DNA of 64,000 nt from Roseobacter fucihabitans (lineage in GTDB: Bacteria > Pseudomonadota > Alphaproteobacteria > Rhodobacterales > Rhodobacteraceae). A program made the translations under genes and the position numbers. Positions within the stretch are counted from its first letter, which is position 1; every line of letters starts with the position of its first letter. The stretch lies in contig NZ_CP143423.1 of the NCBI RefSeq assembly GCF_014337925.2, forward strand, positions 4,184,501-4,248,500, in the 5' to 3' direction. The notes beneath the pieces were generated by a model that saw nothing but the letters and a program-made list of their open reading frames with translations, ran no database searches and had not been told where the DNA came from. Below, in pieces: positions 16,709 through 64,000 of the stretch.

Positions 16709-16717
16709 CCTGCGATT

Positions 16718-17398
16718 ATGAGCACGCTTCTCCTCATTGACGATGACCCTGAAATCACCTCCGCGCTGGCGCGTGGGCTGGCCTTGCACGGCTATGAGAC
16801 CGAGACCGAAAACCGCGCCGACCGGGCGTTGGCACGGTTACAAAGCGGTGCGCATGCCGGGGCCATCGTCGATGTGATGCTCGGCGCGGATAGCGGGATT
16901 GATCTGGTGCGCGCCGCCCGCACCAGCGGGGTCACGCTGCCCATCCTCATGCTCTCGGCGCTCTCGGAGGTCGAACACCGCGCTGCCGGGCTTGCCGCCG
17001 GGGCGGATGATTATGTGGTGAAGCCTTTCAATTTCGACGAATTGGTCGCCCGCCTTAAGGTACAGGAGCATCGCGTCAGCACCCTGCGCCCCGCCCCCGC
17101 GCGCCTGTCGCGCCACACCCGGACCCTGCAAAACGGCACCGCAGAGACCCATTTGACGGAGCGCGAATACGATCTTCTGGTGCTTTTGATGCAGCATGCA
17201 GAGGCCCCCCTGCCCCGTGCTGCGATATATGAGGCGCTTTGGGCGGGGGATGGATCGGGTCACGAAAATGTGGTTGATGTCTATATCGGGTATCTGCGCA
17301 AAAAGCTCGCGGCGTCCGATTTTGGCTTCGAAATCAAAACCTTGCGTAACAAGGGCTTTTGCCTCACCGGATTGCTGCCCGAAGAAGAAACTGCGTGA
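16718..17398 (+). CDS. OmpR-family response regulator
   Basis: This 226-residue regulator has an acidic pocket (LLIDDDPEIT), phospho-acceptor Asp in AIVDVMLGADSG, LSALSE, the lysine in DDYVVKPFNFDEL, and a C-terminal winged helix (LTEREYDLLVLLM, HENVVDVYIGYLRKKL). It follows the sensor kinase immediately and precedes pqqA by 104 bases. PQQ genes are therefore plausible targets, though no binding site was identified. Confidence 0.88.
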   Translation: MSTLLLIDDDPEITSALARGLALHGYETETENRADRALARLQSGAHAGAIVDVMLGADSGIDLVRAARTSGVTLPILMLSALSEVEHRAAGLAAGADDYVVKPFNFDELVARLKVQEHRVSTLRPAPARLSRHTRTLQNGTAETHLTEREYDLLVLLMQHAEAPLPRAAIYEALWAGDGSGHENVVDVYIGYLRKKLAASDFGFEIKTLRNKGFCLTGLLPEEETA

Positions 17399-17502
17399 TA
17401 CAGACCAAAGTCTAGGCGTTTCTTATAAATTAAGAGTCGCCCCAAAGGCGCACATCTGCCACGCTGACCTCCAGTGGAACCAATTTTCAGGAGGAAATAC
17501 CC

Positions 17503-17601
17503 ATGGCTTGGAGCAAACCCATCATCCGCGAAATCGAATGCGGCATGGAAATCAACATGTACGGACCAGACAGCGACGAAGAGCGCGAAGTTCTGTTCTG
17601 A
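17503..17601 (+). CDS. pqqA: PQQ precursor peptide PqqA
   Basis: A 32-residue peptide, too short for ordinary gene finding, with a strong Shine-Dalgarno (CAGGAGGAAATACCC) before ATG. It contains the required Glu and Tyr three residues apart in MEINMY (E16, Y20), the residues that PqqE cross-links to build PQQ. The sequence EINMY replaces the more usual EVTLY, and the C-terminus (EEREVLF) is unremarkable. It is the first gene of pqqABCDE. High expression of this peptide relative to the enzymes is expected. Confidence 0.95.
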   Translation: MAWSKPIIREIECGMEINMYGPDSDEEREVLF

Positions 17602-17624
17602 AATTCTGCGCGCGGGTGGTATAA

Positions 17625-18518
17625 ATGACTTTCCGCGCGCATATCCTTGGGGCGGCCGCTGGTGGCGGATTGCCGCAATGGAATTGTGGATGCGAAAATT
17701 GTGACCTGGCCCGCGCCGGTGACATCCCATCCCAAACCCAATCTTCTCTGGCTGTTACAGGGGACGGCAAGACATGGGCCGTTCTGAACGCCTCCCCCGA
17801 CATTCGTCAACAATTTGCCGCGACACCCGCGTTGCACCCCACCGATTTGCGCAAACTGTCCTTGGCGTCGGTTCTGGTGACGAACGGGGATATTGACCAC
17901 ATCGCAGGCCTGCTGGTGCTGCGCGAAATGCAGCCCTTTACGCTCTTTGCCACACCCGGCATTCACGATGTGCTCGCTCAAAACCCTATTTTCGACGCGC
18001 TCAACAGCGCCGTTGTCACCCGCCAGACCATCGCGCTGGAGGAACCCTTCACGCTGGCGCCGCAGCTGACCGCAACGCTGTTCCCGGTGCCCGGCAAAGT
18101 ACCGCTCTATCTGGAGGGCGAAGAGGTGCAAACCGATCTGATCGGTGATCAAACCGTCGGTGTGAAACTGGAAACAAGCGATAAAACAGCGTTTTACATC
18201 CCCGGCTGTGCCGCCATGACCGATGATCTGCGCGCCCGTCTAACCGGAGCGGATCTGCTGTTCTTTGACGGCACCCTGTGGCAAGATGATGAGATGATCC
18301 GCGCGCGTTTGGGCCAGAAAACCGGGGCGCGCATGGGGCATATGTCGATGAGCGGTCCAGCAGGGTCCATCGCCGCGTTCGCGGACATGGGCATCACGCA
18401 AAAACTGTTTGTGCATATGAATAACACCAACCCCGTCCTGCGCCCCGCTTCGGATGAAAAGGCCCAAGCCGAAGCCGCCGGGTGGATCGTTGGACAAGAT
18501 GGCATGGAGATCACGTAA
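17625..18518 (+). CDS. pqqB: PQQ biosynthesis protein PqqB
   Basis: The 297-residue metallo-beta-lactamase-fold protein has LGAAAGGGLPQWNCGC at the start, a two-Cys zinc-like site (NCGCENCDLA) and DIDHIAGLL. PqqB hydroxylates the cross-linked Glu-Tyr intermediate. It starts 23 bases after pqqA and abuts pqqC. Length and order match the family. Confidence 0.95.
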   Translation: MTFRAHILGAAAGGGLPQWNCGCENCDLARAGDIPSQTQSSLAVTGDGKTWAVLNASPDIRQQFAATPALHPTDLRKLSLASVLVTNGDIDHIAGLLVLREMQPFTLFATPGIHDVLAQNPIFDALNSAVVTRQTIALEEPFTLAPQLTATLFPVPGKVPLYLEGEEVQTDLIGDQTVGVKLETSDKTAFYIPGCAAMTDDLRARLTGADLLFFDGTLWQDDEMIRARLGQKTGARMGHMSMSGPAGSIAAFADMGITQKLFVHMNNTNPVLRPASDEKAQAEAAGWIVGQDGMEIT

Positions 18519-50031: not shown

Positions 50032-50880
50032 CACTATGGGACGGTAGTGTCGCAAACTTTTGGAGCCCTGTTGCACTTCTCGGCAGTGACGTTCATTGGG
50101 CAGCCTTTCGACATCTCATTCAAGGTTTAAACGATTGATCAGTTTCAAAGGCGCGCATTTTCCGAAATCGGTGATCCTATACGCGGTCTATTTCTACGTT
50201 CGGTTTGCGGTATCGTATCGGGATCTCGAAGAAATCATGAACGAGTGCGGCGTCGATGTTGATCATGCAACGCTTAATCGATGGGTCGAGAAATATTCTG
50301 TCGCCGTTGCCGGTGAGGCGCGTTGTCAGAAGGCGTCGACCGGTCGATCTTGGCGGATGGACGAAACCTATATCAAGGTCAAAGGCCAGTGGACATATCT
50401 CTATCGAGCGATAGACAAATACGGCAATACCCTTGATTTCATGCTGTCCGAGCGACGTGATGAGGCGGCAGCAACCGCATTCTTCGCCAAGGTGATCGCC
50501 AGTAACGGCTGGCCGGACAAGGTTTTTATCGACAAGAGCGGATCAAACGCGGTCGGTCTGTTCAACATGAATTGCCTGCTGGTGATGCATAACTGGTGTT
50601 GGCTGATCGAGATTCTGCAGGTGAAATATCTCAATAATATTATCGAACAGGACCACCGTTTCATAAAAAAGATCACCCGCCCTATGCAGACCTTCAAATC
50701 GTTCAATTCAGCCGCGTCCACTCTGGCGGGCATCGAAGTCGCCCACATGATCCGCAAAGGACAATTCGACCGACCAGGGTTGTCCGGCTTCGAACAGTTT
50801 GCCGAGCTCGCTGGATAATTGTATCCTAGCGAGGCCCCATCTCGCCTCACGACAAAGTTTGCGACACAACCCTCATAGTG
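50032..50880 (+). mobile_element. IS6-family insertion sequence
   Basis: About 850 bases bounded by inverted repeats: GGTAGTGTCGCAAACTTT at 50043-50060 and the complement AAAGTTTGCGACACAACC at 50854-50871 (one mismatch). Outside these, CACTATG (50032) and CATAGTG (50880) are also inverted, so the terminal repeat may be about 27 bases with a gap. One transposase fills the element. No convincing 8-base target duplication was found. It sits between the pqi operon and a receptor gene. Confidence 0.75.
50096..50818 (+). CDS. IS6-family transposase
   Basis: The 240-residue frame (TTG start as drawn; the true start may be slightly downstream) shows the IS6 layout: FKGAHFPKSVILYAVYFYVR, the helix-turn-helix around CGVDVDHATLNRW, and the DDE residues in MDETYIKVKGQW, VFIDKSGSN and NNIIEQDHRFIKK, ending STLAGIEVAHMIRKGQF. 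The segment between the second D and E (GLFNMNCLLVMHNWCWLIEI) is unlike typical members but keeps the spacing. The protein appears intact. Confidence 0.85.
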   Translation: MGSLSTSHSRFKRLISFKGAHFPKSVILYAVYFYVRFAVSYRDLEEIMNECGVDVDHATLNRWVEKYSVAVAGEARCQKASTGRSWRMDETYIKVKGQWTYLYRAIDKYGNTLDFMLSERRDEAAATAFFAKVIASNGWPDKVFIDKSGSNAVGLFNMNCLLVMHNWCWLIEILQVKYLNNIIEQDHRFIKKITRPMQTFKSFNSAASTLAGIEVAHMIRKGQFDRPGLSGFEQFAELAG

Positions 50881-50937: not shown

Positions 50938-53367
50938 TTAAAACTCGCCCCACCCGTCATCTTGAGCTGTTCGGCCGCCTCCGGCGACCGCGGCAACTTT
51001 TGATGGTTTGATGTAGGGCTCTTCTGGCTTCCTTTCTAACGAAACAACCTTAGTTTCTTTGAAAATTTCGTCGTCCAAAGATACACCGCGGAAACCACGT
51101 AACGTGTTGGCGAGTGTCTCCGCTTCCCCGCTCAAAGCAACCGAGGAGGCGGTCATTTCCTCAAGTGTAGCTGCGTTGGACTGGGAAGAGGAATCAATGG
51201 ATTGGATTGCGGAATTTACTTCTTTGATGCCCATCGACTGCTGTTCAACAGCCGATGTGATCTCGGAGATCTGACTCGATGCCAGTTCCACTTCGGAAAC
51301 GATGGATTCAACAGCTGTACGAGACAACCCAACTTGTCGAACACTTTCTTCAACCGTCTTGCTGTTTTGTTCGATGACGTGACTAATTTCCTGAACAGCT
51401 TCCTGAGAGCGCTGTGCAAGTGCGCGCACTTCAGAGGCTACTACAGAAAATCCTCGTCCTGCCTCGCCAGCCCGAGCCGCTTCAACGCCCGCATTGAGAG
51501 CGAGAAGGTTGATTTGAAAGGCAATGTCCTCAATGACTTTTACGACTCGATTGATCTGTTCAGATGCTTCTGACATTGCCGTGATAGATTCCTCCGTATC
51601 GTTAGAAACTTGCTGGGCGCTGCTGGCGTTTTCTTTCACGCGTTGGGTTGCTTCGTTGGCAGTTTTTGCGTTCGCAACAACCTGCTTAACACTTGCAAAC
51701 AGTTCCTCAACAGCTGCGGAGGTCTCTTCAATTGCCGCGGCACTGTCCTCTGCACGCTTGGCCATCCCGAGCGCGGCTGTTTCCAATTCAGAGGACCCGG
51801 ATGAAACACTGAAACCACTTTTGGTAATTTGCCCCATAGAAGAGGAAAGTTTAAGTAGTGCTCCGTTGAAATCTTCCTTCATCTTCAGAAACACACCCTG
51901 TCGATCACCTTCGATACGAACCCCCAAATTGCCGTCTGCTAGCTCTCCAATACTCTGCACGACATCGTCGATATTGCTTTCCGTCACTTCCAGCAGTCGG
52001 TTGATTACTTCAGCCAATACGACCAGATTTTCATCCTTCATGTCTTCAGCCATACGATTGGACAAATCACCTGAAGCCGCCTGACCAATGACATGTTCCA
52101 TGTCTTTTTGGAAATTCTCCAGCGCCTTCATGCGCGCGCGCTCCAGCTCTGCGACCTCTTCGCGTTCTTTGGCGGCTTGCGCTTCACTTGCGGCACGGGC
52201 CTCGCGATCTTTCTCAGCGGCCAGTCTTTCTTTCTCTAACTCCTCAACATCCGCCATTTGCGCCGTTAGGTCACGCGCCTTGCGAGCATTTTCAAGGAAA
52301 ACAACCATCGCGTTGTTCATTTTACCCAACTCGTGAGTTTTGTCGGTGGGTTCAATCTCAATATCCAGATTGCCCTCGGACACTTCGGTCATAATAGTAA
52401 TCATTCTTGCCAGACCGGCGGCGATAAGACGACCCACCACAAAGGCAACGATGACACCAACGATTGTGCCGATAGCGACCAAAGCCAAAACCATCGTGAT
52501 GGATCGTTTGGCCACCTCTGCACCGGCTGGTCCGAGCGTGTTTTGACGATCCACGATGGCGTCCACCGCTGTCGCCACCGCAGCGAGAGCGGCAGGACCT
52601 GCTTGATCCATCTGGCCATAAAGACTGTTGCGCTGATTGATCGTCGCGGCTACTTCCTGCTCAAGCTCAGCAAAATGTTCGAGATCTGCAATTGTTGATA
52701 TCGTCAATTCGCGTCGGCGCGGATTCTCCAGTTCTGACAATAACTGTGTGAGAGCGTCACTGGCTTTGGTCAAATGTTCCTTTGATTGATTGGCATCAGC
52801 GTCACTATTGGTCACAAGGAAACGTTCAAAATAGAGGCGTCCAAGTATCAGATCGGTGGAGGCCACCCCGGCGATATGGCTCGCTGCAGGATCATTGTCA
52901 GCGTAGGCACTCAGCATGACTTCGGACAATTGTTCGCGGGCCTTTTTGCCAACGACGGCCGCTTCGGCGACAATTGAGTTACGCTGATCCTGCAAAGCGC
53001 TGGCCTGTGTCATGGATGTTGCGTAGGTTTCCAGTAACTCAGGTAAGTCAGCAAGAGCTTCCTGTTCAGGGTATCCTTCGAGCGCAGCCACCATGTCCGA
53101 TTCCAGCTCGAAGATTTCGGCTACGTTGCTTGCAACCTCTGCCGCCTGGGCCTTGTCACCGCTTGCACGGTATTTCAGGGCAGCAATGCGAGCCTCAAAA
53201 AGGTCTTCGGCAACATCCGTTGCGATCAAAGTGGTTTTTGCTGTCCCTCGATAATCTACAAAGGTATCAGCCAGTTTGCTTGTCTGCAACGAAGCAACTC
53301 CGCCGACAAATAGGATGAGGCAGATCATTGCGCCCATTCCCAGATAGATACGCATTACAACTGACAT
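50938..53367 (-). CDS. Methyl-accepting chemotaxis protein with CheR-docking pentapeptide
   Basis: The ATG follows AAGGAATCGGAATCGCC. The 809 residues include TM1 ([17 protein letters not shown]), a helical periplasmic sensor of about 260 residues, TM2 ([17 protein letters not shown]), HAMP, a coiled coil rich in [17 protein letters not shown], a second HAMP-like part ([15 protein letters not shown]) and the signalling domain ([20 protein letters not shown]). The last residues are DDGWGEF, a W-x-x-F pentapeptide of the type that binds CheR/CheB. It is the intact paralogue of the broken receptor at 39474-40647. Confidence 0.88.
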
Positions 53368-53923
53368 GGCGATTCCGATTCCTTTTTGATTCTTCGCCTA
53401 AAAAGTAAGCAGAAAAGAGTTACCAACCTCTTTCAATTGGCCATTTCCATAAGATTTTAGATGCATACTCTAATTAGAACTCGAACATTCAGTTCATTTT
53501 TTGACTGCTTTCCAGTGGCTTGCAAGGATACCCACAGCGCCAAAAGGCTTCGTCGAACTATTGGCTATGCGTTTCGCCTAAAACTGCGGCTCTTAAGTTT
53601 GCCATTGAGCTGATCCAGCAAGGGGCGGGCCACTACATTCACCTCATCAAGGCCAAAGAAACGTTGGTTGCGTACTATCGGTACAGGTGGCCGGATCACC
53701 ACAGAATACGCAGGTGATGGACGAATCGCACTGCAAAGCCAGATAGCGGTACATCGGCATTGCCAGAAAATTTCTTTAGATCGGCATCAATAATGAAATT
53801 AAACTTCTGATTTTATTATATATAATATATTGTCCTACATTATATTGATTATGTCATACAATATATTGATTATGTCATACAATATATGTAACGTGAGGTA
53901 CGTCACTTTAAAAAGGTCCAAAC
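53368..53923. other. AT-rich intergenic region upstream of the sugar operon
   Basis: The 556 bases between the divergent receptor gene and the GntR gene contain no convincing gene. The right part (53800-53890) is strongly AT-rich and carries three phased operator-like sites. The left part holds only short open frames. Confidence 0.55.
53830..53882. promoter_or_regulatory. Three phased operator sites for the FadR-type regulator
   Basis: TTGTCCTACAT lies at 53830-53840, and ATGTCATACAA (complement TTGTATGACAT) at 53851-53861 and 53872-53882. All fit TTGT-N3-ACAT, close to the FadR-subfamily GntR consensus TNGTNNNACNA, and their centres are exactly 21 bases apart, two helical turns. The last two lie in a 21-base direct repeat. 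They sit 42-94 bases before the regulator start and probably control the whole operon. Confidence 0.65.
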
Positions 53924-54679
53924 TTGCCCGAATTATTTCCCAAAAAGCCTGGCATTACATCCAGCCCGACAATTGACCCTCTGGTCCACCTCAATGCTGA
54001 TGGGCAGAAGCGGGATGTGCTTGACGCGCTATCGCTCATGATCGAGCGGGCCGGTCTGGGTATCGGTGACCGGCTCCCGCCCGAAGTCGAGATTGCAAAG
54101 AAACTGAATGTGGGCCGCTCGAAGGTGCGCGAAGCCCTGATCGCCTGGCAGAATATGGGCATTGTCACTCGTAACAAAAAAGCCGGGACGCGGCTTGCTG
54201 CCGAAGTGTCATCAAAATCCCTTCATATGCCGGTGACGCTGAAGCTGGAGGCCGAAAGCCTGCTGCGAACCCATGCCGTGCGCCGTCCGCTCGAGATTGA
54301 AGCGGTGCGCCTTGCGGCGCGGCACGTTACGGCGCAGCAATCAAAGATCATCTTAGCCAGAAGTGCAGAACTAATGGCGGTGTATGAGGCTGGCGAAAAC
54401 TGGCGTGCTGCGGACCACCGCTTTCATAAAGCAATTCATGATGCTTGTGGAAATCCACTATTCGAACAATTGATCCGACAAATCCAGGATGGCTTTAACG
54501 CCATCTACGAAGCACCTTTCGGTCAGCCACATCTTGGGCAGGCAACCATCCCACTACATCCCGGTATTGCAGATGCCATTGCTGATGGTGACGAAAAACA
54601 AGCGGTGGCGATCATGGGAACGATTATGGACATAGTTGAAACCGAAGTTCGCCATATGATGGGGGATCAGAATGTCTGA
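53924..54679 (+). CDS. FadR-subfamily GntR transcriptional regulator
   Basis: An in-frame TAA 15 bases upstream leaves TTG 53924 as the first possible start (AAAGGT before it); 251 residues. The winged helix has GDRLPPEVEIAKKLNVGRSK and VREALIAWQNMGIV; the FCD domain has LEIEAVRLAARHVTA, RAADHRFHKAIHDACGNPLF and the late His of LHPGIADAI, which fits FCD metal-binding positions. It overlaps the PLP gene by 8 bases. It is likely a ligand-released repressor of its own operon, with the three upstream sites as operators. Confidence 0.86.
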   Translation: MPELFPKKPGITSSPTIDPLVHLNADGQKRDVLDALSLMIERAGLGIGDRLPPEVEIAKKLNVGRSKVREALIAWQNMGIVTRNKKAGTRLAAEVSSKSLHMPVTLKLEAESLLRTHAVRRPLEIEAVRLAARHVTAQQSKIILARSAELMAVYEAGENWRAADHRFHKAIHDACGNPLFEQLIRQIQDGFNAIYEAPFGQPHLGQATIPLHPGIADAIADGDEKQAVAIMGTIMDIVETEVRHMMGDQNV

Positions 54680-55823
54680 GTCTCAACGCATCGCGACACT
54701 TTTGGCCAATGTCTTTGACGACGCGGACGGCTCGATGACGCCGCCGATCGTCCAAACGTCGCTGTTTTCTTTTGACAGCTATCAGGCTTTTGAAGACCGC
54801 ATGGCAGGTCGCACCAATCAGCCGATTTATACGCGGGTGCAAAACCCCACTGTGGCGGCGTTCGAGAGCTTGATGGCGAAAGCCGAGAGGGGCGAGGCGG
54901 CGGTCGCGCTCGCATCGGGCATCGCGGCAATTTCGTCCACCTTGCTGGCATTCGTGAGACCCGGATCCAAAATCGCCTGCGTGGAACATGTATACCCCGA
55001 CACTTACAAATTCATGGAACGTATCCTGCGCCCATTTGGCGTCGAGATCAGCTATCATACGGCCGCTGCATTCGAAGATGATGAAAACTTGCTTGATGGT
55101 GTCGATCTGGCCTTTCTGGAAAGTCCAAGTTCGGTTGTCTTCACTCCCCTGAATTTGCCCCGAGTGACCGAACTCGCCAAACGGCATGGTGCGCTCACAA
55201 TGATAGATAATTCCTGGGCCAGCCCCGTCTTTCAGCGCCCGCTGACCCTTGGTGTCGATATCGTCATCCACTCGGCCTCGAAATACATTTCGGGCCATTC
55301 AGATACAGTTGCAGGCGTTGTGGTGTCCTCCCTGGATCACATCGCCCGCATCCGCGATTTAACCCTGCCGCTTCTGGGTGCTAAGCTTGCACCTTTTGAA
55401 GCCTTCTTGCTGACCCGTGGTTTAAGGACGCTGAGCGCGCGGATGATGCAACATCAGGCGACGGCAAACCTGTTTGTTGATCGGTTGGCAACCGTTCCGC
55501 AGGTGCGCAAGATCAACAGCCCCGGCGCAAACGAAGTACCCGGCCTGACGGGAAGGTCGGGACTCATGTCCATCGAATTCGATAATACGGTCGATATTCC
55601 AAAATTCTCCGATGCTCTGCAATATTTCCGGCTGGGCGTAAGCTGGGGCGGGTTTGAAAGCTTGATATTGCCAGCCCGCGTGGGCCTCGCGCAAGCGGGC
55701 GCGCAGAACTCGATGCAGAAATTTGGCGTCTCCCCCAATCTGGTTCGGCTGAACCTTGGATTGGAAGACGCAGAAGACCTTTGGGCCGATTTTGTACAGG
55801 CCCTGAGCCAAAGCGCAGCCTGA
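54672..55823 (+). CDS. Cys/Met-metabolism PLP-dependent enzyme
   Basis: The 383-residue fold-type I enzyme has the phosphate-binding YTRVQNPT, ALASGIAAISST, and the PLP lysine in IHSASKYISGHSD. These match cystathionine gamma-synthase/beta-lyase relatives; the active site seems complete. Such enzymes do beta- or gamma-elimination or replacement, often at C-S bonds. Its place as the second gene of a sugar uptake operon is unusual, and the natural substrate is unknown. It may process a sulfur- or amino-acid-linked part of the imported compound, which is inference. Confidence 0.85.
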   Translation: MSESQRIATLLANVFDDADGSMTPPIVQTSLFSFDSYQAFEDRMAGRTNQPIYTRVQNPTVAAFESLMAKAERGEAAVALASGIAAISSTLLAFVRPGSKIACVEHVYPDTYKFMERILRPFGVEISYHTAAAFEDDENLLDGVDLAFLESPSSVVFTPLNLPRVTELAKRHGALTMIDNSWASPVFQRPLTLGVDIVIHSASKYISGHSDTVAGVVVSSLDHIARIRDLTLPLLGAKLAPFEAFLLTRGLRTLSARMMQHQATANLFVDRLATVPQVRKINSPGANEVPGLTGRSGLMSIEFDNTVDIPKFSDALQYFRLGVSWGGFESLILPARVGLAQAGAQNSMQKFGVSPNLVRLNLGLEDAEDLWADFVQALSQSAA

Positions 55824-55867
55824 CAGGCAAAAGACGCAGAATTTAACCAACAAGGAAGGAACATCAA

Positions 55868-57127
55868 ATGAAACATCTGCTCTCTGGTTTAACAACCATC
55901 GCTCTCTTGATGGGAAGCGGTGCCTACGCCGAAAGAACGCTGAAGCTTGTCGAAGTGATCACAAGCCCGGAACGAACTGAAGTGCTGCAAGGCATCGTAG
56001 ATGATTTCGAAGCAAACAATGCGGATGTCAAAGTCGAGATTGTCAGCCTCCCTTGGGGGCAGGCGTTTGAAAAACTGGCCACAATGGTTGCGGGCGGGGA
56101 CGTGCCCGACGTGGTCGAAATGCCCGACACATGGCAGGCGCTTTATGCAGGTTCAGACCAGCTTGTCAGCCTCGGCGACCATGTGGCTGAGTGGGAACAC
56201 GGCGCGACGCTGACCGAAAAAACAGTCGCGATGGGAAGCCAGGCCGGCGATCTCTATATGATCCCCTACGGCTTTTATCTGCGAGCGATGTTCTACAACA
56301 AAAAACTGCTTGCACAAGCCGGTGTTGAAAACCCGCCCACCACAATGGCAGAGTTTAAAGCCGCATCAGCAGCGGTGTCCGAGCTTGAAGGCAAGTCCGG
56401 CTATTGCCTGCGTGGTGGCCCCGGCGGCACAAACGGATGGATCATGTTTTCGGCCGCGATGAACGGTACAAACGAGTTCTTCACGCAAGATGGTCAAAGC
56501 CGGATCAACGAACCCGGATCCGTCGAAGGTATCCAGTTCATGATCGATATGTATCAGGACGGCAACGCACCAAGAGACAGCGTTAATTGGGGTTTCAACG
56601 AAATCGTAGCTGGCTTTTATTCCGGCACCTGCGCTTTTCTTGATCAAGATCCCGATGCGTTGATCGCGATTTCAGAACGGATGCCGGCCGAGGATTTCGC
56701 AGTGATCCCAATGCCCGTTGGCCCGTCCGGCAAAGCATTCCCCACCATTGGCTTTGCAGGCTGGTCAATCTTTAAATCGACCGAGCACGAGGACGCGGCG
56801 TTCGATCTGGTTGCAGCACTTTCCGCACCGGAGGCGAATGCGACATGGGCAAAGCGTGTCGGTGTCATTCCGATCCACAAAGGTGCTGATCAGGATCCGT
56901 TCTTTCAGACCGAGCAGTTCAAAGGCTGGTTCGACACTCTTAACGGTGAGCAATACGTGCCGACCACCATGCCGACCTACCTTGAACAATGGGGCTACTT
57001 CGGCAGCACCGTGGTCCTGGAAACAAGCCAGGAAGCTCTGTTGGGTCAGCGCAGCGCGCAAGATCTTGCGGACGAATGGGCCGAACTTCTGACCGCAGAA
57101 TACGCCAAGTGGCAGGCAAATCAGTGA
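55868..57127 (+). CDS. Sugar ABC transporter substrate-binding protein
   Basis: The ATG follows AAGGAAGGAACATCAA. The 419-residue protein has a signal peptide (LTTIALLMGSGAYA), and family 1 features: DVKVEIVSLPWGQAFEKLAT, VAGGDVPDVVEMPDTW, YMIPYGFYLRAMFYNKKL, and GFAGWSIFKSTEHEDAAFDL. It should capture a mono- or oligosaccharide in the periplasm for the permeases downstream. The specificity is not readable from sequence. Its stop overlaps the first permease start. Confidence 0.9.
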   Translation: MKHLLSGLTTIALLMGSGAYAERTLKLVEVITSPERTEVLQGIVDDFEANNADVKVEIVSLPWGQAFEKLATMVAGGDVPDVVEMPDTWQALYAGSDQLVSLGDHVAEWEHGATLTEKTVAMGSQAGDLYMIPYGFYLRAMFYNKKLLAQAGVENPPTTMAEFKAASAAVSELEGKSGYCLRGGPGGTNGWIMFSAAMNGTNEFFTQDGQSRINEPGSVEGIQFMIDMYQDGNAPRDSVNWGFNEIVAGFYSGTCAFLDQDPDALIAISERMPAEDFAVIPMPVGPSGKAFPTIGFAGWSIFKSTEHEDAAFDLVAALSAPEANATWAKRVGVIPIHKGADQDPFFQTEQFKGWFDTLNGEQYVPTTMPTYLEQWGYFGSTVVLETSQEALLGQRSAQDLADEWAELLTAEYAKWQANQ

Positions 57128-58059
57128 TAGTCCGCACCCGAAAAACCGTCATGCCCGGGGAAACCCGGGCGCGACGCTCGCTGTACTGGCAGTACATGGT
57201 GGAGCCATTCCTTTACCTGTCGCCCGCAATCGTCCTCATCGCGACAGTGATGTTAATTCCGCTGACTATCGGCATTTCCTATTCCTTTCAGTCCATTGAG
57301 CTTCTGAACCCGTTCAACACCGGTTGGGTCGGCTTCGAGAATTATCAGCAGCTCTGGTCTGACCGCAAATTCTGGATCGCCCTGGAGAACACATTCTGGT
57401 GGACATTCTGGTCGATCAGTTTCCAGTTTCTCCTCGGCCTCGGCCTGGCGCTTTTGCTCAACACGGAATTCTTCGGCAAGAAGCTGTTCCAGGCGCTGGT
57501 GTTCCTACCCTGGGCCGTGCCGACATTCCTGTCTGCGTTGACCTGGGCCTGGTTGTTTAACCCGGTGATCGGCCCCTTGCCACATTGGATGGCCAGCCTT
57601 GGAATTTTATCAGAACCCTACAACATTATGGGCGATCCTGAACTGGCGATGTGGGGGCCGATTGTTGCCAACATCTGGTTCGGCGTGCCTTTCTTTGCCA
57701 TTACCTTGCTCGCCGCGCTGCAATCCATTCCCGGTGAGCTTTATGAAGCCGCCGAAATTGACGGTGCATCAAGCTGGCAGATATTCACCAAGATTACTCT
57801 GCCGTTTCTGGCCCCCATGATCGCAATCACGGTGATGCTGCGCACCATCTGGATCGCGAACTTCGCCGATCTGATCTATGTGATGACGGGAGGCGGACCT
57901 GCGAATTCGACGCAGATCGTAAGCTCCTACATCTTTACAACCGCTTTCCGCAAACTCGACTTCGGCTACGCCTCCGCCATTGCTGTGGCGCTTTTAGGCA
58001 TCCTGATGATCTACGCCGTGGTCCTGCTCTGGCTTCGCAAGAAGCTGGTCAAGATCTAA
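57124..58059 (+). CDS. Sugar ABC permease 1 (MalF/UgpA-like)
   Basis: A GTG overlapping the binding-protein stop (GTGA) gives 311 residues; ATG 57151 is an alternative. About six helices are visible (FLYLSPAIVLIATVMLIPLT, ALVFLPWAVPTFLSALTWAW, AIAVALLGILMIYAVVLLWL) with the EAA loop ELYEAAEIDGASSWQIFTKI. It pairs with the permease at 58425 but is separated from it by an unknown small gene. Confidence 0.9.
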   Translation: MIVRTRKTVMPGETRARRSLYWQYMVEPFLYLSPAIVLIATVMLIPLTIGISYSFQSIELLNPFNTGWVGFENYQQLWSDRKFWIALENTFWWTFWSISFQFLLGLGLALLLNTEFFGKKLFQALVFLPWAVPTFLSALTWAWLFNPVIGPLPHWMASLGILSEPYNIMGDPELAMWGPIVANIWFGVPFFAITLLAALQSIPGELYEAAEIDGASSWQIFTKITLPFLAPMIAITVMLRTIWIANFADLIYVMTGGGPANSTQIVSSYIFTTAFRKLDFGYASAIAVALLGILMIYAVVLLWLRKKLVKI

Positions 58060-58071
58060 GGAGAACTCCTG

Positions 58072-58437
58072 ATGTCTGTTCTGCCCAAAATGCCCAAATC
58101 CACCAGAAGCAACACGAGCGGTCGCGGCTCCAATGAGCGGTCCCGGGCAGATATCCTGATACTTCTGGGACCAGAACAGGGCGTAAATCTCGAACTTCCA
58201 GAGCTCGAAAAGTTTTTGTCCTGCAGTATCCAGGTTTCTGGATTTATCGATCCGACGCAGGCCGAGCGCTTGCGCGAAGAGGATGGGTTTCCAATCTTCT
58301 CATGCATCCGCGATGCACTCAGAGCCTTTCCTGAGTCGCTTCTCATCTATGACAATGCGTTTTTGAAAATGGCGGACAGCCCGGATGATAATCTGATTAT
58401 GACAGCAGGCGAGGGAGAAGAGACATGGCAAGAATAG
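58072..58437 (+). CDS. Unknown 121-residue protein between two permease genes
   Basis: A strong Shine-Dalgarno (AAGGAGAACTCCTG) precedes the ATG, and the end overlaps the next permease start by 13 bases. The soluble protein has a basic, Ser-rich N-terminus (PKSTRSNTSGRGSNERS) followed by a compact alpha/beta part: RADILILLGPEQGVNLELPE, LEKFLSCSIQVSGFID, AERLREEDGFPIFSCI, ALRAFPESLLIYDNAFLKM. No family was recognised. No signal peptide or membrane helix is present, so it is cytoplasmic. Placement suggests a transporter regulator or a sugar-handling subunit. Confidence 0.72.
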   Translation: MSVLPKMPKSTRSNTSGRGSNERSRADILILLGPEQGVNLELPELEKFLSCSIQVSGFIDPTQAERLREEDGFPIFSCIRDALRAFPESLLIYDNAFLKMADSPDDNLIMTAGEGEETWQE

Positions 58438-59267
58438 CAAAGCGTTCCCCGCTCCTTCTGGTCGCTAAATACGCCGCACTCCTTGGTTATCTGACCTTCG
58501 CGCTCTTTCCGCTCTACTGGCTGTTGAAAATCTCCGTGACGCCGGATCAGTTGATTTTTGTCGAAGCAACAAACCTCTGGCCGTCGGCTCTGACGTTCGA
58601 CAACTTTCGCTCGGTACTGTTTCAAACCGATTTTCTGGCCTACTTTGGCAATTCTCTCTATGTCTCGCTGGGAACGGCTGCGGTCACGACGGTTGTTGCT
58701 GCCGGGGCCGGTTATGCGTTCTCCCGGTTCGAGTTTGGCGGCAAGAAGATCCTCATTGCCGTCATGCTGATCACCCAGATGTTTCCGCTGCTGATGATCA
58801 TCGCACCGATCTACAAGATCGTGGCGTCACTGGGTCTGCTCAATTCGCTGACATCGCTGATTGTCGTCTATACCGCGTTCAACATCCCTTTCGCCACCTT
58901 CCTGATGCAGTCGTTCTTTGACGGCATCCCCCGCGATCTGGAAGAAGCCGCGATGATGGATGGCTGTACGCGCTTTCAAGCGCTGCGCAAGGTGGTCTTT
59001 CCGCTCACCCTGCCGGGGTTGGGTGCGACACTCGGCTTCGTGTTCACCGCGGCCTGGTCGGAACTACTGTTTGCATTAATGCTGATTTCCAAGAACGAGG
59101 CGATGACCTTCCCCGTCGGCCTGTTGACCTTCGTGTCGAAGTTTTCAGTGGACTGGGGGCAGATGATGGCGGCTGGCGTCCTCGCGCTGATCCCCAGCTG
59201 CCTCTTTTTCATCTTCATTCAACGATATCTCGTGCAGGGCCTGACGTCCGGCGCGGTCAAAGGATAA
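58425..59267 (+). CDS. Sugar ABC permease 2 (MalG/UgpE-like)
   Basis: The 280-residue membrane protein has six helices (LLVAKYAALLGYLTFALFPL, ILIAVMLITQMFPLLMIIAP, MAAGVLALIPSCLFFIFIQR) and the EAA loop DLEEAAMMDGCTRFQALRKV. It is the second permease of the CUT1-type importer. Spacing to the ATPase gene is 13 bases. Confidence 0.9.
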   Translation: MARIAKRSPLLLVAKYAALLGYLTFALFPLYWLLKISVTPDQLIFVEATNLWPSALTFDNFRSVLFQTDFLAYFGNSLYVSLGTAAVTTVVAAGAGYAFSRFEFGGKKILIAVMLITQMFPLLMIIAPIYKIVASLGLLNSLTSLIVVYTAFNIPFATFLMQSFFDGIPRDLEEAAMMDGCTRFQALRKVVFPLTLPGLGATLGFVFTAAWSELLFALMLISKNEAMTFPVGLLTFVSKFSVDWGQMMAAGVLALIPSCLFFIFIQRYLVQGLTSGAVKG

Positions 59268-59280
59268 AGGAGCCACGCAC

Positions 59281-60357
59281 ATGGCACGTATTGAACTCAA
59301 AGACGTGGTGAAACGCTATGGTTCCGTTGAGGTGCTGCGCGACATCAACCTCGACATTCAGGATGGTGAATTTATCGTTCTTGTCGGCCCGTCCGGCTGC
59401 GGCAAGTCAACGCTGTTGCGGATGATTGCGGGGTTGGAGCCGATCTCCGCTGGTGATTTCCTGATCGACGGCGAGCGGATGAACGACGTGCGTCCCCGTG
59501 ATCGTGACATCGCCATGGTGTTTCAGTCCTATGCGCTTTACCCGCATATGGATGTGGCCCGGAACATGGGCTTTTCGATGGAAATCCGCAAAGATCCGGT
59601 GAACGAACGCGCCAGCCGCGTCAAGCAAGCCGCTGAAACGCTGGGTCTGACGGCGCTCACAGAGCGGCTGCCCAAGGCGCTGTCGGGCGGGCAACGCCAA
59701 CGTGTTGCAATGGGCCGCGCGATCATCCGCGATCCACGCGCGTTCCTGTTTGATGAACCGCTCTCAAACCTTGACGCGTCACTTCGCGTTGAAATGCGGC
59801 TTGAGATTGCACGGCTCCACCAAAAGCTGCGGTCCACAATGATTTACGTCACTCATGATCAGGTCGAGGCGCTCACTTTGGCCGACAGGATCGTTGTTCT
59901 GAACGGGGGCGATGTTCAGCAGATCGGCAGCCCGCTTGATCTTTACGAGCGGCCCGCAAACAAATTTGTCGCCCGTTTTATCGGGTCCCCCACGATGAAC
60001 ATCGTCCCGGTGCAAGGTGAACGCGGCAGCGTGATCCTTGCGAACGGTGCCCATCTGGCATTGCCGCATCTGCCGGATACGCTGGATGCCGTGGAGCTTG
60101 GTATCCGTCCAGAGCACATAGATGTTGTCGATGATGGCGATGTCTCTGGTGTCATCGACGTGGTGGAACATCTCGGGTCAGACACGAATATTTACGTCAA
60201 TGTGGAGGGCCTTGGCCCTCTTATGGTCCGCAAGCACGGCAATGTCCCGGTACGCGCGGGCGAACGCATTGGCCTGCGTATTCAGCCCCACAACGTCCAT
60301 CTTTTCGCGTCGGACGGAACCGCCTTGCGGCGCGTCACGACAGATATCGCGGCCTGA
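59281..60357 (+). CDS. Sugar ABC transporter ATPase (MalK/UgpC-like)
   Basis: The 358-residue ATPase has Walker A (GPSGCGKST), signature (LSGGQRQRVAMGRA), Walker B (FLFDEPLSNLD), H loop (VTHDQVEAL) and a C-terminal TOBE-type region (GIRPEHIDV, LRIQPHNVHLF). It completes a CUT1-type sugar importer. It precedes the TPP enzyme by a single base, marking a continuous operon. Confidence 0.91.
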   Translation: MARIELKDVVKRYGSVEVLRDINLDIQDGEFIVLVGPSGCGKSTLLRMIAGLEPISAGDFLIDGERMNDVRPRDRDIAMVFQSYALYPHMDVARNMGFSMEIRKDPVNERASRVKQAAETLGLTALTERLPKALSGGQRQRVAMGRAIIRDPRAFLFDEPLSNLDASLRVEMRLEIARLHQKLRSTMIYVTHDQVEALTLADRIVVLNGGDVQQIGSPLDLYERPANKFVARFIGSPTMNIVPVQGERGSVILANGAHLALPHLPDTLDAVELGIRPEHIDVVDDGDVSGVIDVVEHLGSDTNIYVNVEGLGPLMVRKHGNVPVRAGERIGLRIQPHNVHLFASDGTALRRVTTDIAA

Positions 60358-60358
60358 C

Positions 60359-62746
60359 ATGAGCAATACATCTGACATCCGCCGCGCACTTGAGGCTAAG
60401 ACGCTTTGGCTATCTTCGTGGATGATCCATCATGCGAATAATATCCGTGCCAAGGGGCGGATAAAGGTTGGCGGGCATCAGGCCTCAAGCGCGTCGATGA
60501 ACGCCATCCTGAACGCGCTTTACTTTGACGTGTTGCGGCCAGAAGACCGTGTGGCGGTGAAACCCCATGCCAGCCCGGTGTTCCACGCGATCCAGTATCT
60601 GCTTGGAAACCAGTCCCGCCAGCAATTGCAGGATTTCCGCGCCTTTGGGGGTGCCCAACCCTATCCGTCGCGCACCAAGGATCACGACGATGTGGATTTT
60701 TCCACCGGGTCCGTCGGAATGGGGGTCGCGATGACGGCCTTTGCCAGCATGACGCAAGACTATTTGGCGGCGCATGGCTGGCTGGATCGCCCCAAGGGTC
60801 GGATGATCGCGTTGGTCGGTGACGCGGAACTGGACGAAGGCAATATCTATGAGGCACTGCTGGAAGGTGCAAAGTATGATTTGCGCAACTGCTGGTGGAT
60901 TATTGATTATAATCGCCAGTCCCTTGATGGCGTCGTCACCGAAGGCCTCAACGCCCGGTTCCGCGATATTTTTGTCGCTTGCGGCTGGGAGGTTGTTGAA
61001 CTCAAATATGGGCTTTTGATGCAAGACGCCTTTAAAAAACCAGGTGGCGCGCAACTCAAGAAGTGGATCGACGGCTGCGACAATGGTCTCTACTCGGCCT
61101 TGACCTTCAAAGGCGGCGCGGCGTGGCGCGCGCGGCTGGAGGCCGACTTTGCCGGGGATAACGAGGCGCTCGCATTGGTGGCGGATCATGACGAGGCGGC
61201 TCTTTCCCAATTGATGGGTAACCTGGCGGGTCATGATGCAGCGCTGATGGCCGCAACGATGAAGGCCATCGACCACGATCGGCCCGTCTGCTTCATCTGC
61301 TACACCGTCAAAGGCCATGGCTTGCCGTTGGCCGGACATAAAGACAACCATGCAGGCATCATGACGACACCGCAGATAGAAGGATTGCGCGACGACATGG
61401 GGATCGAAGCCGGCGCGGAGTGGGAACCCTTCGCAGGGCTGCACATACCTGAAAAGGACATTCAGGCGTTTCTTGATGATGTTCCGTTCAATGCGCGGGG
61501 TCGTCGTCGTTACAACGCTACTGTCGTGCCGACCACTGAAGTCGTCACGCCAAGATTCAAACCGATGACGTCGACACAGGAGGCTTTTGGGCAAATCCTT
61601 GCCGCGATTGCCACGGATGCACCGGAGCTTGCAGAGCGGATCGTGACAACATCCCCCGATGTGTCAGTGTCCACCAACCTTGGTCCGTGGATCAACAAAA
61701 CCGGGCTCTTTGCCAAGTCAGGCCAAGCAGATGTATTCCGCGATCATGCAATCCCGTCCACCCAGAAATGGCAACGGCATAAGGCGGGTCGCCATATCGA
61801 ACTTGGCATTGCCGAAAACAATCTGTTTACGTTTCTTGGAGCGCTGGGTCTTTCCCACTCTCTTTTCGGGCAACGGCTATTGCCTGTTGGGACTGTCTAC
61901 GATCCGTTTATCTGCCGGGGCCTCGATGCGCTCAACTATGCGTGTTATCAGGACACACGCTTCATGTTTGCGGCGACACCGTCCGGAGTATCGCTTTCCC
62001 ACGAAGGTGGCGCGCATCAGTCGATTTCAACGCCGCTGATTGGCATGGCGCAAGACGGATTGGCGACCTTTGAACCTGCCTATGCGGATGAACTTGAAGT
62101 TATCATGCGGTGGGGCTTTGATTACATGCAGCGTGACGGGGCCAACCAGCAGGCCGAAGAAACCTGGTTGCGAGATGAAAAAGGTGGATCGCTCTATCTG
62201 CGGCTATCCACCCTCCCGCAGGAACAACTTCAGCGTGACATGACAGCGACGTTAGCGACTGAAATTGTCTCTGGCGGCTATTGGTTGCGCCCACCGACCG
62301 CTTCAACCACGGTTGTGCTGGCCTATTGCGGTGCTCTGGCACCCGAGGCCATCAATGCGGCGGGCCTCTTGGCTGAAGATATGCGAGACGTGGCCGTGCT
62401 GGCGGTGACATCAGCAGATCGGCTCAACGCCGGATGGCAGGCAGCGGAAAGGGCAAGGCAACGCGGGGATGTCACCGCTTTGTCCCATGTTGAAAAACTT
62501 CTTGGCGCAGTGCCGCGTGATGCGGGCCTGGTTTCAGTGATAGATGGTCATCCCGCGACACTGAGTTGGCTGGGCGGTGTCTTTGGGCACCGCACCAAAT
62601 CGCTGGGGGTCGAGCATTTCGGCCAAGCAGGGATGATAGAGGACATGTATCATCTGCACGGGCTGGATGCGAATGCGATCATGCATGCAGCAAGAGCATT
62701 GATGCCGGGTCGTGGTGCGCGATATCTTGCGCCTCTGGCAGGCTGA
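60359..62746 (+). CDS. Transketolase/PDH-E1-like TPP enzyme
   Basis: The ATG lies one base after the ATPase stop; 795 residues. The layout follows homodimeric PDH E1 (AceE) and transketolase: VGGHQASSASMNAI, a TPP motif GDAELDEG (154-161) with N185 in DYNRQSLDG, and the second-half motifs ELGIAENNLFTFLGALGLS, SLSHEGGAHQSIS and FEPAYADELEVIM. The third residue of the TPP motif is Ala rather than Gly. No E2 or E3 gene is present, so a ketol-transferring or cleaving role on a sugar seems likelier than pyruvate dehydrogenation. The substrate is unknown. Confidence 0.82.
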   Translation: MSNTSDIRRALEAKTLWLSSWMIHHANNIRAKGRIKVGGHQASSASMNAILNALYFDVLRPEDRVAVKPHASPVFHAIQYLLGNQSRQQLQDFRAFGGAQPYPSRTKDHDDVDFSTGSVGMGVAMTAFASMTQDYLAAHGWLDRPKGRMIALVGDAELDEGNIYEALLEGAKYDLRNCWWIIDYNRQSLDGVVTEGLNARFRDIFVACGWEVVELKYGLLMQDAFKKPGGAQLKKWIDGCDNGLYSALTFKGGAAWRARLEADFAGDNEALALVADHDEAALSQLMGNLAGHDAALMAATMKAIDHDRPVCFICYTVKGHGLPLAGHKDNHAGIMTTPQIEGLRDDMGIEAGAEWEPFAGLHIPEKDIQAFLDDVPFNARGRRRYNATVVPTTEVVTPRFKPMTSTQEAFGQILAAIATDAPELAERIVTTSPDVSVSTNLGPWINKTGLFAKSGQADVFRDHAIPSTQKWQRHKAGRHIELGIAENNLFTFLGALGLSHSLFGQRLLPVGTVYDPFICRGLDALNYACYQDTRFMFAATPSGVSLSHEGGAHQSISTPLIGMAQDGLATFEPAYADELEVIMRWGFDYMQRDGANQQAEETWLRDEKGGSLYLRLSTLPQEQLQRDMTATLATEIVSGGYWLRPPTASTTVVLAYCGALAPEAINAAGLLAEDMRDVAVLAVTSADRLNAGWQAAERARQRGDVTALSHVEKLLGAVPRDAGLVSVIDGHPATLSWLGGVFGHRTKSLGVEHFGQAGMIEDMYHLHGLDANAIMHAARALMPGRGARYLAPLAG

Positions 62747-62764
62747 AATCGGAAAGGCTGTGAA

Positions 62765-64000
62765 ATGAATGAACAACACCCGCCGGGGCCCGCAGAGGCG
62801 CCGGGGTTCTGGCTCGACACTCCTGAACATCGACAGTGGCTCATGTCTGAAGCTGAGCGGCAATGGACCTTTTTCGCGGCCAGCCTACGGGACGGTCCCG
62901 GGTTTTTCTCATTGGACACTGCCGGCAATCCGCTGTCGGATGACACGCAAGAACTGCACAGCACAACACGACTTATTCACGCCTTTGCGCTTGGCCAAAT
63001 CTCGGGACATGCCGGGGCGGATCGAATCGTTGAACATGGCATGGCCTACCTCCGGGACCATCACCACGACGCGGAGCATGGTGGCTATTTATGGGCCCTG
63101 AGAGGCGATGCCATCGTTGATGATCGCAAACTCGCGTATGGACATGTCTTCGTTCTCTTGGCTGGCGCAAGTGCGAAAATGGCCGGACACCCAGATGCAG
63201 ATGCATTGATTACGGATGTGAGCGACATTCTCGACAAACACTATTGGGAGGAAGACGCGGGCCTGTTTGCAGATGAATGGAACAGAGACTGGACGCCGTT
63301 TTCCACATATCGCGGGATGAATGCGAATATGCACGCAGTCGAAGCTTTGCTGACTGCATATGAGGCAACCGGACAGGATGTGTTTCTCAGCCGCGCGGGT
63401 CGCATCCTCGAATTTTTCACCGCCCGCATCGCACCAGCAGAAAACTGGCGTCTGCCTGAGCATTATTCGCAAGATTGGGAAATTGACCGTTCCTATGCGG
63501 GCAATCCCATGTTTCGCCCTGCCGGAACAACACCGGGTCATTCTTTCGAACTGGGGCGACTGTTGTTGCAATTTTGGGATCTTTCGGGACGTCAGGACCG
63601 AAATATGCCCGTGACTGCGCGACACCTGATCGAACGAGCGTTGAAAGATGCCTGGTGTGCTCACGGCGGCCTTGCCTACACGCTTGAATTCGGAGGAAAA
63701 GTGTCGGCATCTACTCGATTTTGGTGGCCCGTAACCGAAGCGATTGGCGCGGTTGCAGCGCTGATTAAGTTGGATCGGCAGGCCAGCGATGAGCAATGGT
63801 ATCGGAAGCTTTGGACTTTTGCCGATACCCATTTCATCGATCATATCCGCGGCGGTTGGTTTCCAGAGATTGACAACGCCGGGCAAGTCACCAGCACGAT
63901 CTTTAAGGGGAAACCCGACATCTATCACTCTGTGCAGGCATGCCTATTCCCGCTCACAAATGGGCTGTCGGGGCATATTGATGATTTGAAACATAGTGAA
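62765..64000 (+). CDS. AGE/YihS-superfamily aldose-ketose isomerase, 3' cut by edge
   Basis: The frame is open from ATG 62765 to the window end (412 codons, close to full family length). Barrel motifs: LHSTTRLIHAFALG, YRGMNANMHAVEALL, GTTPGHSFELGRLLL with His259, WWPVTEAIGA and GKPDIYHSVQACL with His388. These two His fit the catalytic pair of mannose/sulfoquinovose isomerases. GKPDIYH has Pro where I recall a Gln in sulfoquinovose isomerase, so a mannose-type or other aldose is as likely. It would turn the imported aldose into a ketose for the upstream TPP enzyme. Confidence 0.84.
   Translation, partial: MNEQHPPGPAEAPGFWLDTPEHRQWLMSEAERQWTFFAASLRDGPGFFSLDTAGNPLSDDTQELHSTTRLIHAFALGQISGHAGADRIVEHGMAYLRDHHHDAEHGGYLWALRGDAIVDDRKLAYGHVFVLLAGASAKMAGHPDADALITDVSDILDKHYWEEDAGLFADEWNRDWTPFSTYRGMNANMHAVEALLTAYEATGQDVFLSRAGRILEFFTARIAPAENWRLPEHYSQDWEIDRSYAGNPMFRPAGTTPGHSFELGRLLLQFWDLSGRQDRNMPVTARHLIERALKDAWCAHGGLAYTLEFGGKVSASTRFWWPVTEAIGAVAALIKLDRQASDEQWYRKLWTFADTHFIDHIRGGWFPEIDNAGQVTSTIFKGKPDIYHSVQACLFPLTNGLSGHIDDLKHSE

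Follow-up and report, generated by a model that had tools for sequence, protein, structure and literature searches.

The mde operon of Pseudomonas putida, reportedly described by Inoue in 1997, is said to encode the Lrp-type regulator MdeR, the methionine gamma-lyase MdeA and MdeB, the E1 component of a 2-oxobutyrate dehydrogenase. An operon of Roseobacter fucihabitans, located in a window of 64,000 nucleotides (bases 4184501–4248500 of contig 1 in a 4.85-Mb genome), likewise pairs a pyridoxal phosphate (PLP)-dependent lyase of the Cys/Met family with an AceE-like thiamine pyrophosphate (TPP) enzyme. The same operon encodes a FadR-type GntR regulator, a CUT1-type sugar importer of the ATP-binding cassette (ABC) class and an AGE-family isomerase. 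It is proposed, with a little less than an even chance of being right, that the operon breaks down an imported sugar–amino acid conjugate, likeliest an alpha-mannosyl amino acid, with O-mannosyl-threonine as the best fit and O-mannosyl-serine next.

The likeness to the mde operon extends to the TPP enzyme's family, many other members of which have genes for Lrp and true methionine gamma-lyases nearby. However, hidden Markov model cut-offs do not place the PLP enzyme among the methionine gamma-lyases, the TPP protein lacks the AceE N-terminus and reaches 150 of 1408 bits on the MdeB-type model TIGR03186, and the sugar importer, GntR regulator and AGE isomerase set the operon apart. That score rules out a canonical MdeB identity for the TPP protein. 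Mannoside operons of related bacteria (loci L279 and L284) resemble it in joining an importer and an AGE gene to a gene for a mannose-freeing enzyme, either a GH38 alpha-mannosidase or a mannosylglycerate-hydrolase-like protein. In the present operon a PLP lyase, rather than a glycoside hydrolase, would free the sugar, and a putative 2-oxo-acid enzyme is added. The sulfo-transketolase route combines SqvD (PF02952) with SqwGH, a close homologue of pentose-phosphate transketolase, according to the available part of the source (PMC9594981). It shares with the pathway proposed here an isomerisation without phosphorylation and a TPP enzyme, but the isomerase and TPP enzyme of the operon come from families other than those named there, and none of nine operon-region proteins matches PF02952.

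All genes named in the preliminary description are present, intact, closely packed and on the plus strand. Reading past the window edge at 64000 places the AGE stop codon, and with it the end of the operon, 18 bases beyond, and the next gene downstream encodes an insertion sequence (IS) transposase on the opposite strand. No E2, E3, sugar kinase or aldolase gene occurs in the operon as read to its end at 64018 and into the following IS, in agreement with the earlier account of its gene content. An ordinary pyruvate dehydrogenase component with E2 and E3 genes past the edge is thereby rejected for the TPP enzyme; three E2 matches lie elsewhere in the genome.

Conservation was assessed at relatives' PLP loci, obtained by a genome_contigs scan in which eight aligned PLP proteins served as query, and limited to the best 80 of 579 relatives. 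Genes at these loci were called by codon usage; longest-reading-frame calling hides other-strand genes in high-GC DNA. A substrate-binding protein (SBP) gene directly follows the PLP gene in 71 of the 80 loci, and a GntR gene precedes it in 70. Among the nine loci lacking the SBP gene, L099 is explained by a contig end, a PF03553 transporter gene stands in its place in L096, L109 and L115, and L084, L085 and L087 have other neighbours. The remaining two, from Defluviimonas, have no ABC importer: in L077 (7433–11134) GCS2-like and amidase genes directly precede the PLP gene and AGE lies behind it, and L078 (7434–11134) has similar-sized genes in front and a quarter-length AGE behind. The L077 amidase might free an amino acid conjugate.

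Furthermore, SBP orthologues (E <= 1e-140) were found in 26 of 331 related genomes, and in all 26, window included, the PLP gene lies beside the SBP gene. A class-wide search returned orthologues in 6 of 385 genomes, again with the PLP gene alongside. The Maritalea plasmid locus L050 (9069–18498) is the only cassette without a PLP gene in the genomes searched; its regulator (47%), importer (SBP 69%) and operator-like site are homologous to those here, and it carries GH38 mannosidase, ROK kinase and cupin genes. The core that is conserved and widespread comprises the regulator, PLP enzyme and importer; the TPP enzyme and isomerase are optional. The lyase, which had been regarded as an addition to the pathway, belongs to this core.

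The same cassette occurs on annotated plasmids of R. etli (p42e), R. johnstonii (pRL11), Shinella, Mameliella and Pantoea dispersa, and its hosts span marine roseobacters, rhizobia, Pantoea, Erwinia and Rahnella. A locus tag numbered close to the R. etli cassette is named in two papers, in one of them within a protein table, and may or may not belong to a cassette gene. Two records titled Exiguobacterium and Mycobacterium (L072 and L108) carry cassettes that look proteobacterial and are possibly misnamed. The full gene order does not reflect chance: it recurs on a Tritonibacter plasmid, with IS genes on both sides, and together with a full-length AGE gene in 5 of the 80 loci (L056, L058, L059, L062 and L063). 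In L056, from Pacificibacter marinus, the TPP gene (15331–17718) has an in-frame internal stop, and the contig of L063 begins within the PLP gene. L086 has the full order, but its AGE gene is only quarter-length; this fragment and that in L078 were kept apart from the full-length counts. Closer cassettes (PLP identity at least 60%) include the TPP gene in 10 of 37 and full-length AGE in 10 of 37, with quarter-length AGE in 2 more. One plasmid carries the importer and AGE alone. No common third partner gene appears downstream of the cassette among the annotated neighbours, not all neighbours being annotated.

Among the models shown, PRK05968, of unnamed function, is the only one whose cut-off the PLP enzyme passes (Table 1). 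Its scores fall below the cut-offs for cystathionine beta-lyase (TIGR01324, 225 of 365.9 bits) and methionine gamma-lyase (TIGR01328, 279 of 549.7 bits, as well as every other methionine gamma-lyase cut-off shown). The residue comparison covered 113 distinct sequences out of 144 cassette-type enzymes and 38 out of 40 methionine gamma-lyases, after removal of identical or interrupted ones. The cassette-type enzymes keep the catalytic core of Y53, R55, Y108, D179, K204 and R359. Asp110 is present in 113/113 of them at the position occupied by Cys (Cys116) in 38/38 methionine gamma-lyases, and the column of K237 in the methionine gamma-lyase of L075, taken here as Lys240 of the P. putida enzyme, contains Pro, Ser, Thr, Ala or Gln and never Lys. 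Similarly, a Val of methionine gamma-lyase is replaced by Lys238 in 112 of the 113 (Arg in the other), and a Leu by Trp325.

Trp182, Ser210, Trp325 and Gly327, each in 113/113, match Escherichia coli MetC and differ from methionine gamma-lyase. The MetC core residues and SWGG motif (Trp340) are present as Y53, R55, Y108, D179, K204, W325 and R359. MetC differs in having Pro113 for Asp110 and Tyr338 for Val323, the latter being the methionine gamma-lyase state, in lacking Lys238 and in its operon setting. The substrate pocket is of neither the methionine gamma-lyase nor the MetC type, and leans towards a beta-lyase. Closer, marine cassettes and distant ones, largely from soil and plants, keep the same residues, from which it follows that one chemistry probably serves both. 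A possible, if doubtful, function is that of a glycosyl-amino-acid beta-lyase that would remove sugars from Ser or Thr by elimination rather than hydrolysis, with Asp110 as the acid aiding departure of the sugar.

The TPP protein passes no equivalog cut-off; its score on the AceE model is 169 of 860 bits, above the 107 bits for transketolase. AceE residues H106, H142, E571, Y599 and H640 are kept in 84/84 family members. The first 71 AceE residues, presumably the E2-binding part, have no counterpart, and the alignment starts at residue 72 counted with Met. In plasmid records the family is labelled transketolase, hypothetical or DXP-synthase-like.

Searches located 106 full-length TPP genes in 102 of 341 related genomes. 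Thirty were fetched with 1.5-kb flanks, and 40 of the other 76 were sampled with 3.5-kb flanks, two of them clipped by contig ends. Within 3.5 kb, a methionine gamma-lyase gene is present in 22/40, an Lrp gene in 29/40 and either or both in 30/40; one of the 40 (L185) adjoins a cassette. In G004, fetched separately, both genes lie near the TPP gene. Among the 23 genes with 1.5-kb flanks that fall outside the operon's clade (L019–L041), 12 adjoin a 33–36% PLP relative, and L022 adjoins a cassette. The PLP neighbours of the TPP genes in L075 and L046, the two tested, pass methionine gamma-lyase models. The family's link with methionine gamma-lyase and Lrp suggests a 2-oxo-acid enzyme, acting for example on 2-oxobutyrate, and not a sugar transketolase.

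Full-length, one-piece TPP relatives are present in 22/26 cassette genomes versus 80/305 others (p 4.8e-9 by Fisher's test; 1.3e-8 when the window is excluded); as the TPP and SBP searches drew 341 and 331 genomes, the cautious choice is to set all 80 against 305. G052, G064, G132 and G305, with partial or split matches, were counted as lacking the TPP gene. AGE matches (E <= 1e-100, identity at least 44%) are enriched in the same way, in 17/26 cassette genomes versus 58/305 others (p 1.3e-6). A TPP tree was built from 84 of 102 sequences plus the window, omitting L001, L009, L012 and L148 (window or overlapping) and identical sequences; 33 rows are unlabelled and L049 is a long branch. The operon copies form one clade (support 100), outside which seven cassette-linked copies imply four label changes, either gains or losses, of which three are forced by starred branches, and this fits a cassette–TPP link that arose more than once.

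The arrangements vary. The TPP gene immediately follows the importer in G126 and G235 (L153 and L233), lies beside the cassette with a methionine gamma-lyase gene between in Roseibium (L075 and L076), is convergent with it in L241 and is about 3 kb or less away in L071 and L128. About 8 kb separate the cassette from a paired methionine gamma-lyase and TPP gene in G004, G182 and G297.

The nearest solved relatives of the AGE protein are YihS chains. It matches YihS residues R55, Y111, N172, H176, H248, E251, W316, E320, K378 and H383 and differs at W51, Q362, K373, W375 and Q379, positions taken here to be active-site residues. Gln362 and Gln379, which presumably bind sulfonate in YihS, are replaced by Pro367 and Pro384; both are Pro in 26/26 AGE rows listed, of which L001, L009 and L012 are the window and some others repeat one genome. 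Seventeen AGE neighbourhoods were fetched and partly annotated, L278 being a case of PLP and AGE genes together. A GH38 alpha-mannosidase gene lies directly upstream of the AGE relative in L279, and in L284 a mannosylglycerate-hydrolase-like gene (Pfam MGH1-like) lies beside UgpC and AGE genes, with a shorter homologue in L285. Sorbitol- and mannitol-type dehydrogenase genes are found near the AGE relative in L282 and L283, and nothing about the sugar could be learned from the AGE genes in L053, L301 and L303. To judge by the informative neighbourhoods, the AGE protein is probably a mannose isomerase, converting mannose to fructose.

A sugar importer related to that of a mannosidase locus, an isomerase of the mannose type and a TPP enzyme whose kind accompanies 2-oxobutyrate production together lead to a sugar–amino acid conjugate as the proposed substrate. 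A threonine derivative is favoured because beta-elimination giving 2-oxobutyrate requires such a derivative. O-mannosyl-threonine is a natural candidate, as it arises through protein O-mannosylation. Gene content, operon end, core conservation, shared operator-like sites, the statistical linkage of the three enzyme types and active-site residues are established directly, and from them substrate identity and enzyme activities are inferred as follows. The CUT1 importer would take up the conjugate, and the FadR-type regulator would be released from tandem TGTCNKACA sites by the conjugate or a product. The PLP enzyme, to judge by its residues and partners, would catalyse a beta-elimination on the amino acid part, with release of the free sugar and ammonia and formation of a 2-oxo acid, namely 2-oxobutyrate from threonine or pyruvate from serine. 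AGE would convert the released mannose to fructose, as relatives' neighbourhoods suggest, and a kinase encoded elsewhere would feed glycolysis; the genome has PfkB-type matches, none above the fructokinase cut-off. Finally, the AceE-like enzyme would decarboxylate the 2-oxo acid to propionyl or acetyl units, in keeping with its family's methionine gamma-lyase link.

Three palindromic repeats precede the regulator gene (Table 1). Three or more WTGTCNKACAW sites per 64-kb window were reached in 7 of 100 shuffles, and for this reason the case for operators rests on site spacing and position and on conservation in relatives, not on number. With distances counted upstream of the regulator gene (at loci where none was found, upstream of the PLP gene), a site lies within 400 bases in 31/37 closer loci, and two or more do in 27/37; the six without are L063 (start cut off), L077, L078, L084, L085 and L089. 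The remaining 695,095 bases of these loci contain just 8 sites. Distant loci (PLP identity below 60%) have a site in 2/43, and one lies in front of the Maritalea mannosidase cassette. The perfect palindrome has no site genome-wide. A genome scan with WWTGTCNTACAWW returned the 3 operon sites and 3 elsewhere, versus 5 for the reversed control, and no wider regulon is read from it on account of that control.

Table 1. Features of the operon and its upstream region (window coordinates).
Feature	Coordinates	Strand	Evidence and assignment
Three palindromic operator-like repeats, WTGTCNKACAW	53830..53882 (starts 53830, 53851, 53872; 21 b apart)	+	Pattern search
FadR-type GntR regulator, GntR + FCD	53924..54679	+	Pfam domains
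PLP enzyme, Cys/Met metabolism family, subfamily PRK05968	54672..55823	+	NF004627, 539 bits vs cut-off 508; proposed glycosyl-amino-acid beta-lyase
CUT1 sugar ABC substrate-binding protein	55868..57127	+	Pfam/NCBIfam
CUT1 permease 1	57151..58059	+	Pfam/NCBIfam
Small open reading frame, 121 aa	58072..58437	+	No Pfam/NCBIfam match at E <= 0.001
CUT1 permease 2	58425..59267	+	Pfam/NCBIfam
UgpC/MalK-type ATPase	59281..60357	+	NF008653, 467 bits vs cut-off 432
AceE-like TPP enzyme, 795 aa	60359..62746	+	HMMs, family context, residues; proposed 2-oxobutyrate (2-oxo-acid) enzyme
AGE-family isomerase	62765..64018 (window edge at 64000)	+	HMMs, residues; proposed D-mannose isomerase

Several findings weigh against the conjugate pathway. 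In whole sequence and fold (model structure with a predicted local distance difference test score of 81.6) the PLP enzyme is nearest to methionine gamma-lyases, and on that account gamma-elimination from a homoserine or homocysteine conjugate is possible. A sugar O- or S-linked to homoserine or homocysteine, such as S-glycosyl-homocysteine, would then yield a (thio)sugar, ammonia and 2-oxobutyrate, an outcome also in line with Val323 and with a TPP family shared with methionine gamma-lyase. However, the specificity residues of methionine gamma-lyase are lost at all four positions described above, four others match MetC instead, and in the S-linked case AGE must accept a thio-sugar; gamma-elimination is judged unlikely. 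The available parts of the literature on mannosyl- and glycosyl-amino acids and lyases yielded no bacterial catabolic pathway and no bacterial use of free mannosyl-threonine.

Other points against the conjugate pathway concern the distribution of its parts and the sugar. Distant cassettes have AGE in 0/43 and the TPP gene in 1/43 fetched stretches. G157, G268, G285 and G312 have the cassette without a TPP relative in the order sample, AGE matches at E <= 1e-100 are missing from nine cassette genomes, and G312 has neither companion. The Mameliella cassette is followed by galactonate dehydratase and aldolase genes and, further on, by a canonical AceE/MdeB-type gene with an E2 gene. Because of the cassettes without companions and the Mameliella neighbours, different cassette branches may act on different sugars, and the core reaction may extend beyond mannose. 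The Maritalea evidence is a single locus, and the second-best model for the PLP enzyme is Ala/Glu racemase, at 303 bits.

The racemase score, together with the PF03553 transporter genes in three loci, also lends itself to an account in which the PLP enzyme is an amino-acid racemase or an ordinary C–S lyase acting on a simple sulfur amino acid, the importer serves an unrelated small solute, and the TPP and AGE genes are passengers of transposition. The identical IS copies around the operon here, the IS genes around it in Tritonibacter and the distant cassettes, most of which lack both genes, agree with this. It is set against the strong statistical linkage of both genes with the cassette in several arrangements and the close linkage of the PLP gene to a sugar-type importer, and it appears somewhat less probable than gamma-elimination. 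The co-occurrence that the preliminary description proposed to check holds for the fixed PLP–importer core and for the enrichment of TPP and AGE genes in cassette genomes, but most distant cassettes lack the latter two.

The mannose assignment and the TPP reaction also meet difficulties. The best AGE model is the ManI equivalog NF051846, at 313 of 600 bits and below its cut-off, and YihS Arg238 aligns to a gap. The hydrolase-like gene of L284 falls below the glucosylglycerate-hydrolase equivalog cut-off, and a PfkB gene near the AGE relative in L291 falls below that for fructokinase. AceE residues E401, H407 and E522 align to other residues in 84/84 TPP-family members. The sulfoquinovose route is rejected on the enzyme families and the AGE residues. 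A pathway that imports and isomerises a sugar and then has the TPP enzyme cleave the unphosphorylated or sulfonated ketose in the manner of a transketolase, a lyase acting on a side substituent, is very improbable: Transketolase_N is the best Pfam match of the TPP protein, and the import and AGE steps and the missing kinase fit, but the higher AceE score, the methionine gamma-lyase and Lrp genes near its relatives, the two prolines in AGE and the other families of the sulfo-transketolase enzymes (available part of PMC9594981) all oppose it. The sugar cleavage by the TPP enzyme and the resemblance to the sulfo-transketolase route, as first put forward, accordingly find no support, and the transketolase logic should yield to the sugar–amino acid lyase pathway; what gains support is the reading that the operon serves the catabolism of a substituted sugar and includes a lyase and an aldose–ketose isomerase of the mannose type.

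The operon and a chemotaxis-receptor-like gene (50938–53367) are bracketed by two inverted, 100% identical IS copies of 829 b (50043–50871 and window-equivalent 64348–65176), whose transposase has 240 aa; no target duplication was seen around the segment. A second receptor-like gene lies just past the right copy (L009 11730–14243), and a very long open reading frame rich in GGxGxD-type repeats starts downstream of the operon (L009 15811–19998). The permease genes are split by a 365-base stretch (58060–58424), absent from the preliminary description, within which most of the 121-aa reading frame, of unmatched family, lies. In the relatives compared, the permease genes overlap or are at most 79 b apart, with no counterpart of the stretch, and the reading frame is probably outside the system.

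The gene families are known, and their combination and the proposed reaction look new; no description of the cassette's function was found in the available parts of the literature. If the conjugate pathway is correct, a widespread cassette would gain a testable substrate class, and a PLP-dependent elimination would do the work of a glycosidase. A functional lead would also emerge for the 'transketolase' family, which has full-length members in 102 of the 341 related genomes. The cassette would then represent a second route for breaking the O-glycan linkage to protein remnants, spread as a cassette in Alphaproteobacteria and plant-associated Enterobacterales.

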